From contig JAGFXS010000024.1 in NCBI GenBank assembly GCA_017861415.1, positions 1 to 11,817 on the forward strand: a stretch of DNA of 11,817 bases, read 5' to 3'. The notes beneath the pieces were generated by a model, which saw only the letters and a list, made by a program, of their open reading frames with translations, was not told where the DNA came from and made no database searches. This document shows positions 4,670 to 6,924 of the stretch, one piece after another. Within the stretch, counting starts at the first letter, position 1; every line of letters starts with the position of its first letter. The stretch comes from Bacillota bacterium (GTDB lineage Bacteria > Bacillota > Clostridia > Oscillospirales > Oscillospiraceae). Both the position numbers and the translations under genes were made by a program.

Positions 4670-4804
4670 TCAGTGGGTTAGCCGGGCGCGGCCCCGGGCA
4701 CGGCGACGTGCCAGAACCTTGCGACCATTTCTGTCGGCCATACGCTTCCGAAAACCGTGCTCCTTGGAGCGCTGACGCTTCTTAGGCTGATAGGTACGAA
4801 CCAT
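4670..4804 (-). CDS. rpmH: 50S ribosomal protein L34
   Basis: A 44-aa highly basic protein of exactly the usual L34 length. It starts [18 protein letters not shown] and continues RKRM...[19 protein letters not shown] before TGA at 4672-4670. [19 protein letters not shown] and [10 protein letters not shown] are the family signature. AGGAGGTG ends 7 nt before the ATG at 4804. It is first in the left-arm operon, downstream of a near-consensus promoter and a structured leader. The gene is short enough to be missed by length-filtered gene calling. Confidence 0.97.
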
Positions 4805-4823
4805 GACGATACACCTCCTGTAT

Positions 4824-4902
4824 CTTGTTACAAGCGGCAAAGCCGCCCTCCACGAACAGGATGTCCCGGAAACACAGGCCCGTTCCCAAGTCTTTCATCC
4901 TG
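4824..4902 (-). promoter_or_regulatory. structured 5-prime leader of rpmH
   Basis: Between the predicted transcription start (about 4958) and the rpmH Shine-Dalgarno there are three inverted repeats: CAGGATG (4857-4863) with CATCCTG (4896-4902), enclosing GGAA/TTCC (4868-4871 with 4883-4886); GCGGC/GCCGC (4834-4838 with 4842-4846) with a 3-nt loop; and the near-palindrome CTTGTTACAAG (4824-4834), next to the AGGAGG site. Overlap of the last two makes them mutually exclusive. This suggests a regulated ribosomal-protein leader, but I do not recognise a named family. Confidence 0.4.
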
Positions 4903-4964
4903 CGGTCGTCACTGTAAAATGCGCTGGCTGCCCATAGGGGGCAGAGTAACTCAGCGTGATGAAT

Positions 4965-4993
4965 ATTATAACGGAAAGAAAAAGCATCGTCAA
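4965..4993 (-). promoter_or_regulatory. sigma-A type promoter for rpmH
   Basis: On the minus strand TTGACG (4993-4988) and TATAAT (4970-4965) are separated by exactly 17 bp, which is 5/6 and 6/6 matches to the housekeeping consensus. Transcription would start near 4958 and leave a leader of about 150 nt before rpmH. Confidence 0.85.
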
Positions 4994-5120
4994 CCTCATT
5001 TTTTGCTCAAAGAGCTCCCTTTTTCAAAAATATGATGTTATTTCAGTAAAAACCCCACATCTTGTGCAATTATTCCCTCGCACCCTGAAAAATAAATATC
5101 AACGGTGTTTGTCGGGCAGC

Positions 5121-5148
5121 TTGATAGTTCTTACATTATTAAAATAAT
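5121..5148 (+). promoter_or_regulatory. candidate distal promoter for dnaA
   Basis: TTGATA (5121-5126) and AATAAT (5143-5148) are spaced by 16 bp, each one mismatch from the sigma-A consensus. It would start transcripts about 45 nt upstream of those from the proximal promoter. The site also overlaps an AT palindrome, so the resemblance could be fortuitous. Confidence 0.45.
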
Positions 5149-5165
5149 TATCCCCATAAAATTTC

Positions 5166-5194
5166 TTGCTCTTTGGCCCTCTTTTTGGTATAAT
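5166..5194 (+). promoter_or_regulatory. candidate proximal promoter for dnaA
   Basis: A perfect TATAAT (5189-5194), preceded by GG, lies 17 bp after TTGCTC (5166-5171), a 3/6 match to the -35. Transcription would begin near 5201, giving a leader of about 220 nt before the dnaA ATG. It is the last good promoter-like element before dnaA. Confidence 0.65.
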
Positions 5195-5215
5195 GATTCT
5201 CGTGAATCTGCTCCC

Positions 5216-5256
5216 TGTGGAGGAAAAGATCCTACCCGCCCCTTGTGGAGGAAAAG
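5216..5256 (+). repeat. two direct copies of TGTGGAGGAAAAG in the dnaA leader
   Basis: Exact 13-bp repeats lie at 5216-5228 and 5244-5256, 28 bp apart. Each contains AGGAAAAG, which resembles the purine core of the dnaA Shine-Dalgarno (AGGAAAGAAGG). Neither has a start codon at normal spacing. As DNA, TGTGGAGGA is two mismatches from an inverted DnaA box, so a protein-binding role is also possible. Confidence 0.75.
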
Positions 5257-5257
5257 G

Positions 5258-5413
5258 CTTCTTTCCTATGAATTTCAATATGGGGGCGCCCACTCGAATG
5301 CGTGATGCCCTCGTCTGGCACAGAAAGGGCAGCGCATTCCTTGTTTCATAGATTGAGACGCCGCACGAGCGGCGTTTTGTATCCAGTTGGACGCATTCCA
5401 TTCAGGAAAGAAG
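5258..5413 (+). promoter_or_regulatory. predicted long-range RNA structure that could mask the dnaA ribosome binding site
   Basis: CTTCTTTCCT (5258-5267) is the exact reverse complement of AGGAAAGAAG (5404-5413), the dnaA Shine-Dalgarno region. After a 2-nt bulge, GAA (5270-5272) can continue the helix with TTC (5401-5403). Nested inside, GAATGCGT (5296-5303) is the exact reverse complement of ACGCATTC (5391-5398). Inside that are a TGCCCT/AGGGCA hairpin (5306-5311 with 5326-5331) and the 5358-5375 hairpin. A competing fold pairs TTTCCT (5262-5267) with AGGAAA (5249-5254), which would free the Shine-Dalgarno. Pairings were found by eye, and no folding energy was computed. Confidence 0.5.
5355..5380 (+). 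terminator. terminator-like hairpin inside the dnaA leader
   Basis: ACGCCGC (5358-5364) and GCGGCGT (5369-5375) form a perfect 7-bp stem with the loop ACGA, followed by TTTGT. The stem is GC-rich and the T-run is short. The T-run is only on the plus-strand side, so the element points towards dnaA. No annotated gene precedes it on this strand. It is therefore either an attenuator of dnaA or the end of a small RNA of about 175 nt. Confidence 0.5.
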
Positions 5414-5420
5414 GTCGCAT

Positions 5421-6740
5421 ATGAACTCTGCCAATGAGATCTGGGTGAAAATTGTCGCTCTCATGGAAAAGGAGGTAACCGCCACTACCATCGGCACCTG
5501 GTTTGATGACGCCGTGGCCGTGGCACTGGAGGAAAACCGCTTTGTCCTCTACACCCCCTCGGAATTCAAGAAGGAAATTATAGAGGGCCGCTATATCCCC
5601 GTGATGAAAAAGGCCCTTTATGAACTGTTTTCAGCAGACTTTGATGTTCTGGTGCTGGGAGAGGGAGAGATGGATCAGTACCAGAATCCTGCCGATAAAT
5701 CCGGTCGTTTCCTCCCCGGTACCGAGGAATATACCTTTGAGCGCTTCGTGGTGGGCAACTCCAATAAGTTCGCCCATGCCACCGCAGTAGCAGTGGCAGA
5801 AAATCCGGGGCAGAGCTATAACCCCCTTTTCATCTACGGGGAATCCGGTTTGGGCAAAACCCACCTCCTTTATGCCATCGCCCGCACCATCCATAAGAAT
5901 CACCCTGATTACCGCATCATTTACATCCGGGGCGACGCTTTCACCAATGAATTAATCCACGCCATCCGAGAAGGCAGAAATCAGGAATTCCGGGACAAGT
6001 ACCGCTCCGCCGACGTGTTTCTCATGGACGACGTTCAATTCATCGCCGGACGTGACTCTACCCAGGAGGAGATGTTCCATACCTTCAATGCGCTCTACGA
6101 GGAGAGAAAGCAGATCGTCTTCACCTCAGACCGTCCCCCGAAGGAGATGCTCCGTCTGGAGGACCGTCTGAAAACCCGGTTTGAATGGGGCCTCTTGGCG
6201 GATATCCTCCCCCCGGACTATGAAACCCGCATGGCAATCATTAAAAATAAAGCCATCCGCATGGGTGTGGAGCTGCCGGAGGAGGTCCTCACCTATGTGG
6301 CGGAGAACATTACCGCCAACGTCCGCCAGATTGAAGGCACCGTGAACAAAATCCTGGCTTATCGGGATCTGCTGGGCAACAGCGTGGACTCCGGCACCGT
6401 CACCCGAGCTGTTCGGGATATGTTTAAGGATCCCACGGACATTCTTCCATCGGCAGATGTCATCATTGATGAAGTCTGTAAATTCTACAGCATCGAGGAT
6501 GATGCCCTTCGGGGTCAGGGCAGAACCAAGGACACCGCCCAGGCCAGACAGATCGCCATGTATCTCATCCGTAATATGACCAGCCTCTCCCTGAAGGAAA
6601 TCGGCCGGGAATTTGAAAACCGGGACCACAGTACCGTGCTGCATTCCATAGAACGCATCGAAAAGATGAAGAAGCAGCGGCCGGATATTGCCGAGGTTCT
6701 CAAGGATATCAAAACCAATATTAATGCTCGCTACGAGTGA
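5421..6740 (+). CDS. dnaA: chromosomal replication initiator protein DnaA
   Basis: A 439-aa protein of normal family length. Domain I is at about 1-80 and a short domain II at about 81-103. The AAA+ domain III has Walker A GESGLGKT (140-147), Walker B VFLMDD (199-204), VQFIAGRDSTQEE (205-217), sensor 1 around IVFTSDRPP (232-240), an arginine-finger region RLKTRFEWG (249-257) and sensor 2 NVRQIEG (300-306). Domain IV carries the DNA-binding signature IGREFENRDHSTVLHSI (394-410). GG is more usual than EN just before RDHSTV. DnaA binds 9-mer boxes, unwinds oriC and loads the helicase, and it represses its own gene in many bacteria. The Shine-Dalgarno AGGAAAGAAGG ends 7 nt before the ATG. It is preceded by a leader of about 220 nt with predicted structure. 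Confidence 0.99.
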   Translation: MNSANEIWVKIVALMEKEVTATTIGTWFDDAVAVALEENRFVLYTPSEFKKEIIEGRYIPVMKKALYELFSADFDVLVLGEGEMDQYQNPADKSGRFLPGTEEYTFERFVVGNSNKFAHATAVAVAENPGQSYNPLFIYGESGLGKTHLLYAIARTIHKNHPDYRIIYIRGDAFTNELIHAIREGRNQEFRDKYRSADVFLMDDVQFIAGRDSTQEEMFHTFNALYEERKQIVFTSDRPPKEMLRLEDRLKTRFEWGLLADILPPDYETRMAIIKNKAIRMGVELPEEVLTYVAENITANVRQIEGTVNKILAYRDLLGNSVDSGTVTRAVRDMFKDPTDILPSADVIIDEVCKFYSIEDDALRGQGRTKDTAQARQIAMYLIRNMTSLSLKEIGREFENRDHSTVLHSIERIEKMKKQRPDIAEVLKDIKTNINARYE

Positions 6741-6924
6741 TGAATGCAAAGGGTTTCCACTTACCTTTTTCCACACCTTTTGTGAATATGTGTAAGGGTT
6801 CCTGTGGATATTTTTCCTTTCCTGCGGATTCGTGGAAAAAAAGCGGGGATTCATCCACACCCCCTGTGAATGGAAAAAACCTTTACTTTCAACCCTTTGC
6901 CGGAGTTTTCCACATAAATTTTGC

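Follow-up and report, generated by a model that had tools for sequence, protein, structure and literature searches.

The window analyzed here, a stretch of 11,817 nucleotides, comes from an Oscillospiraceae genome (G000) of 152 contigs and 72.87% completeness, and covers its rpmH-dnaA-dnaN region. The dnaA gene, which encodes the initiator protein of chromosome replication, was assigned from the list of open reading frames and by protein comparison, and the closest DnaA found was a [Clostridium] viride protein, which is 86% identical (loci L002/L031). Upstream of dnaA, the motif TTGCTC-N17-TATAAT resembles a promoter, and transcription would therefore probably start near 5201. The features relevant to the dnaA leader, all on the + strand, are as follows:

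5166..5194, + strand: inferred dnaA promoter, TTGCTC-N17-TATAAT, read from the sequence
5201..5420, + strand: inferred dnaA leader of about 220 nt, its start placed from the promoter only
5249..5254, + strand: local competitor AGGAAA, which can pair with 5262-5267 and hold the anti-Shine-Dalgarno (complement checked)
5258..5267, + strand: anti-Shine-Dalgarno CTTCTTTCCT, exact reverse complement of 5404-5413
5268..5351, + strand: possible upstream reading frame of 27 codons, ATG to TAG, adjoining the anti-Shine-Dalgarno
5296..5339, + strand: hairpin P1, 5296-5303/5332-5339 plus 5306-5311/5326-5331, pair probabilities 0.90-0.999, which excludes helix 2
5355..5378, + strand: hairpin P2, core 5358-5364/5369-5375 with loop ACGA, core pair probabilities 0.85-0.997
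5391..5398, + strand: 3' strand of the proposed helix 2, ACGCATTC, within the second CGCATTCC copy
5404..5414, + strand: Shine-Dalgarno region of dnaA, AGGAAAGAAGG, read from the sequence
5421..6740, + strand: dnaA, 439 codons

To place these features among relatives, 175 dnaA loci were reduced to 146 by removing duplicates and loci with less than 90 nt upstream, and 144 of these had at least 150 nt upstream. A strict TTGnnn-N17-TATAAT arrangement was observed no more than 330 nt from dnaA at 95 of the 144 loci, and a looser form at 136. In the window, the 5166-5194 site was absent from the list of a generic promoter scan, and our own scoring placed TTGATA-N16-AATAAT at 5121-5148 slightly above it. 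Both candidates lie upstream of the anti-Shine-Dalgarno (anti-SD), so the anti-SD would be inside the RNA either way, and the promoter scan gave no + strand promoter-like site within 5270-5420. The placement of the anti-SD within the dnaA transcript, as judged from the 5166-5194 promoter, thus agrees with the earlier note on this DNA. The possible 27-codon frame at 5268-5351 is in the same frame as the listed open reading frame 5166-5351; it was not conserved in the relatives examined and may have arisen by chance.

Several other elements were seen around the leader. A DnaA-box-like TTATCCCCA with one mismatch lies at 5148-5156, upstream of the inferred -35 element, and is a candidate autoregulation site. 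Five DnaA-box matches (at most one mismatch) fall at 6767-6914, between dnaA and dnaN, and the whole window holds 17 such matches versus about 4 expected; the origin is likely located in this dnaA-dnaN interval. The AT-rich ACATTATTAAAATAATTATCC occupies 5131-5151, upstream of the dnaA promoter, where several relatives look similar by eye. Within the leader, a direct repeat, TGTGGAGGAAAAG, occurs at 5216-5228 and 5244-5256, 28 bp apart, and contains GGAGG, which resembles an SD, together with part of TGTGGA, a DnaA-box-like sequence.

The earlier note had proposed that the Shine-Dalgarno (SD) of dnaA is masked by a complement built into the leader, and the complementarity itself was confirmed. 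CTTCTTTCCT at 5258-5267 matches the reverse complement of AGGAAAGAAG at 5404-5413 exactly, and this helix 1 can be extended by 3 bp past a 2-nt bulge, through GAA at 5270-5272 and TTC at 5401-5403. Of 5000 dinucleotide-shuffled versions of the 198-nt leader, 0.34% contained an SD complement of at least 10 nt (P 0.0034). We then compared the 88 loci in which a promoter was called and the leader measured at least 60 nt; the calling was done automatically, and some of the promoters (L029, L148) are questionable. At 10 nt, the SD complement of the window exceeds all others in these 88 leaders (the next has 8), and simple arithmetic turns the P of 0.0034 for one leader into about 0.26, or one in four, for the best of 88. 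SD complements in the other leaders of this set did not, as a group, exceed those in shuffles.

Helix 1 was also evaluated by structure prediction. In the predicted ensemble of 5201-5460, its pairs have probabilities of 0.41-0.69 per bp. Minimum-energy folding recovers it for 5201-5430 and for 5258-5425 but not for 5186-5429, where the centroid alone retains it. Compared with shuffles, the leader gave a fold z of -2.44 for 5201-5430 and a further value of -2.63, and 5258-5425, a segment selected on the basis of the finding, gave a z of -4.59. Leaving 5404-5423 unpaired would take 8.0 kcal/mol of ensemble energy (-85.6 versus -93.6). Overall, these predictions suggest that, at equilibrium, the anti-SD covers the SD in about two of every three molecules.

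A local partner of the anti-SD had been overlooked earlier, as the anti-SD can also pair with 5249-5254 (AGGAAA/UUUCCU). In predictions on the growing RNA, this local competitor (pair 5251-5265) has a probability of 0.30-0.64 before the SD is transcribed and of 0.20-0.25 afterward, and capture of the anti-SD by the SD reaches 0.87-0.97 at 5413-5416 and later settles at 0.59-0.69. Among the 96 loci with a leader of at least 55 nt, the SD core GAAGG of the window ranks 26th lowest in mean accessibility (0.24) and second in the long-range share of SD pairing (0.63). By these predictions, burial of the SD is ordinary among dnaA leaders, and burial by a distant strand is not.

A second complement was likewise verified, GAATGCGT at 5296-5303 being the exact reverse complement of ACGCATTC at 5391-5398. 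The proposal that this helix 2 is nested in helix 1 and stacks with it in order was not borne out, its probability being 0.00 in the 5201-5460 ensemble because 5296-5303 pairs locally with 5332-5339. We therefore ruled out helix 2 as part of the fold; forcing it would cost 6.1 kcal/mol of ensemble energy. CGCATTCC occurs at 5333 and again at 5392, and with the 3' strand of helix 2 placed in this second copy, its complementarity to the 5' strand could be a side effect of the repeat. A nested 8-mer complement was found in 3.7% of 2000 loop shuffles with a spacing of at least 50 nt and in 11.7% with any spacing of at least 3. Instead of helix 2, the prediction gives hairpin P1, whose parts 5296-5303/5332-5339 and 5306-5311/5326-5331 pair at 0.94-0.999 and 0.90-0.999, respectively. 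A short U run (UUUUG, four U) comes after hairpin P2 and is able to base-pair with the 5' strand of its stem, and a terminator scan of 4700-5600 listed no terminator-like site; P2 is terminator-like at most. Against shuffles, the best local hairpin of the window leader had a p of 0.07.

Next, conservation of the leader was examined in congeners and in other genomes of the family, no conspecific genome being among them. A search with 5195-5425 (231 nt) at E <=0.1 found no homologous leader in the 15 other congeneric genomes, and besides the self-match, the 16 genomes (own included) gave matches of 20-35 bases alone. Among 300 family genomes (own included), a sample of the larger group in which two candidates were scored per genome and weak matches were possibly missed, only matches of 21-41 bases were found at E <=0.001. 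Sensitive blastn against 119 records likewise revealed no homologous leader. By promoter call, the leaders of 13 congeners measure 47-114 nt, versus 220 nt here. Neither helix was kept in the relatives examined, which is, as far as these genomes go, the outcome named in advance as speaking against the proposal, and control of dnaA by a conserved anti-SD pairing gained no support, as no relative examined has a homologous leader. A conserved switch is thus unsupported, and what is left is either chance or a brake peculiar to this lineage; a device found in this species alone is possible. An origin of the leader as a mobile or repeated insert was also considered and rejected, the leader having one match in its own, incomplete genome. 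The statement in the earlier note that no named riboswitch or leader family for dnaA is known to match stood: the window has zero Rfam matches at the gathering threshold, and relaxed thresholds gave only eukaryotic or weak chance matches, none convincing.

To learn how common leader stem-loops are in the family, we analyzed the 76 loci whose leader had at least 55 nt after 14 nt were trimmed at the SD end. The best 40-nt local hairpin beat at least 95% of 40 shuffles in 43 of these 76 leaders versus 19 of 75 promoter-upstream stretches, and when the test was run again with 30 shuffles, the figures were 40 of 76 for leaders, 9 of 64 for coding stretches and 17 of 53 for stretches upstream of dnaN; the control rates are well over 5%, and the leaders tested are related. 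Whole-leader folding showed no excess, with z < -2 in 22.7% of the 88 leaders versus 21.8% of upstream controls. An excess at this threshold was confined to the 41 leaders of at least 95 nt (41%, versus 22.5% upstream and 16.7% coding). The local-hairpin counts suggest that dnaA leaders in Oscillospiraceae often carry strong local stem-loops, and P1 (5296-5339) and P2 (5355-5378) may be the counterparts of these stem-loops in the lineage of the window.

The dnaA leaders of a related genus, g63, have a recurrent 12-bp hairpin, R1, followed by GGCG-CTTTGAAAGTTT:

L037:1932-1978, L057:1906-1954, L058:1898-1946, L059:1383-1431 and others: R1-type hairpin with GCGCTTTGAAAGTTT, dnaA leader, g63

Of 18 leaders, 14 were selected by the sequence that follows the stem and aligned as A1 (L029, L043, L089 and L157 being left out). 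In A1, 96.4% of cells pair, and both sides changed in three pairs. The covariation score and the paired share were above those of all 500 column shuffles; the count of pairs with changes on both sides was matched by 148 of the 500 and equaled by a version slid by two columns. A covariance model of R1 matched 16 of 39 g63 genomes at E <1e-7, in every case 15-59 nt upstream of dnaA and on its strand, and in 8 of the 16 the hairpin is identical to a row used to build the model. The remaining 23 genomes had no match at this threshold, three of them having weaker ones. In 120 family genomes, the same threshold gave two matches only, one at dnaA (G077) and one elsewhere (G103). The G103 match is positioned like a terminator between genes, and R1 resembles the ordinary terminators of these organisms elsewhere; therefore, R1 itself may be terminator-like. 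No Rfam match was found in the leaders of the R1-bearing loci L037, L057 and L072. R1 is, like the hairpins of the window, a stem-loop in a dnaA leader upstream of the SD; it differs in that its model finds no match in the window leader even with filters off, when 11 weak matches (E <=10) appear elsewhere in the window.

In a Faecousia-like clade, 14 of 20 leaders were aligned as A3. The six left out (L089, L093, L098, L105, L107 and L110) mostly differ in length, and L107 is a near-copy of L106. The alignment contains an 8-bp stem near the RNA 5' end in which 77.3% of cells pair. Six of its eight pairs changed on both sides, a number reached by 6 of 500 shuffles and also by the alignment slid by two columns; several members have a shifted or different stem, so that A3 undercounts or misplaces some. 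In the Faecousia-like leaders L087-L108, a stem-loop starts soon after the inferred RNA 5' end (for example, L094:1914-2000), with stems that differ among species and mostly still pair.

Leaders have also been enlarged separately, in an Intestinimonas-type group (34 versus 148-171 nt) and in a Flavonifractor-like group (33 versus 174 nt), and the 220-nt leader of the window compares with 103 nt in its nearest relative. The enlarged leaders located are as follows:

L124:1329-1500: enlarged dnaA leader
L033:1825-2000: enlarged dnaA leader
L140:1306-1491: enlarged dnaA leader

These three span the range of 148-174 nt, and their close relatives have 33-34 nt. The Intestinimonas-type L124 leader was matched in four of eight genomes of its genus, three times just upstream of dnaA and once as a 20-nt scrap. 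The Flavonifractor-like L140 leader was found just upstream of dnaA in four of seven genomes, two of which also hold 23-25-nt scraps elsewhere. A conserved anti-SD was considered for the Intestinimonas-type leaders, where a five-sequence consensus pairs the SD with GCCCCU; it shows almost no compensatory change, single-sequence folds give long-range SD pairing of 0.00-0.03, and we do not claim it.

We put at about even odds (roughly 0.5) the reading that the anti-SD pairing in the window is lineage specific and at most a passive brake, not a conserved switch that senses a ligand or protein, and that the hairpins reflect a habit of the family. The pairing would then at most lower DnaA translation passively, by analogy with the brake on initiation formed by stem P5 of the Caulobacter dnaA 5' UTR (PMC8443254). 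P1 and P2 would together be this lineage's version of a sequence-variable family habit of placing stem-loops in the dnaA leader, which could plausibly serve stability of the mRNA 5' end and tuning of translation. Here, the leader structure is predicted throughout and the transcription start is an inferred one. The anti-SD may even be without any effect, given that dnaA must be translated and that the minimum-energy fold of 5186-5429 lacks helix 1. A purely coincidental complement, noticed because many leaders and features were inspected, appears rather unlikely to us. It draws on the rise of the single-leader P of 0.0034 to about 0.26 for the best of 88, on an SD accessibility (0.24) that is only 26th lowest of 96, and on the background raised by purine-rich SDs facing pyrimidine-rich leaders; nevertheless, no other of the 88 leaders has so long a complement, the SD is covered by this one, and the fold around it beats shuffles.

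A translational switch, the view of the earlier note in revised form, is an unlikely explanation. In it, AGGAAA at 5249-5254 would hold the anti-SD until capture by the emerging SD, with the balance being shifted by a signal or by the amount of DnaA. The anti-SD does have two mutually exclusive partners whose order changes as the RNA grows, and the long-range burial of the SD (0.63) is second of 96; nevertheless, helix 2 does not form in the prediction, runs of purines and pyrimidines readily yield such partners, the other leaders have no general excess of SD complements, and with no homologous leader there is neither conservation nor covariation. A conserved switch seems to fit the window leader less well than a passive brake or a coincidence does. 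It is also quite improbable that P2 (5355-5378) and its short U run stop some transcripts before dnaA. Such attenuation would fit the stability of P2, the UUUUG after it and the resemblance of the g63 R1 hairpin to ordinary terminators elsewhere, and it is opposed by the lack of a listed terminator-like site in 4700-5600 and by a U run of four bases that are able to pair with the 5' side of the stem. Highly improbable, finally, is coupling of DnaA to a 27-residue peptide, whereby ribosomes starting at ATG 5268 would cover the anti-SD and free the SD. The ATG directly follows the anti-SD and is preceded by purine-rich, SD-like sequence, but so short a frame is common by chance and the leader was found in no relative examined.

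Besides the passive brake in the window, a broader proposal for the family can be offered tentatively, as possible but short of likely. Oscillospiraceae would control dnaA posttranscriptionally through a leader stem-loop that is kept by structure and position, not by sequence, and has been repeatedly enlarged, the anti-SD of the window being the elaboration of one lineage. Because it is not conserved, the anti-SD of the window is by itself of little importance. How DnaA synthesis is set is little known beyond a few model bacteria, and if leader stem-loops affect translation or the lifetime of the mRNA, replication in a large gut family would have an additional, posttranscriptional layer of control, with the R1 hairpin of g63 as a concrete element that can be tested. 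In the open-licence literature searched, no title dealt with structure in a clostridial dnaA leader, which is no proof of absence.

In leaders of the translational riboswitch type, the SD can be hidden by an upstream strand, and that anti-SD can itself be held back by a competitor. The window leader resembles them in having a strand able to mask the SD and a competitor able to hold the anti-SD, and it differs from them in having no conserved sensor domain, no homologous leader in the relatives examined and no Rfam match. In Caulobacter crescentus, published accounts describe a 155-nt dnaA 5' UTR in which structure around the start site lowers translation initiation (PMC8443254, PMC4489657, PMC4117421), and according to one of them, the starvation response needs the N-terminal peptide and not the dnaA 5' UTR (PMC8443254). 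The likeness lies in a long, structured dnaA leader; Caulobacter differs in belonging to an unrelated phylum, in having no obvious SD and in having a probed fold. Autoregulation of dnaA through DnaA boxes, as described in a further source, acts on transcription via the DNA and not via the leader RNA (PMC8203912), and the window resembles such systems in its DnaA-box-like TTATCCCCA at 5148-5156.
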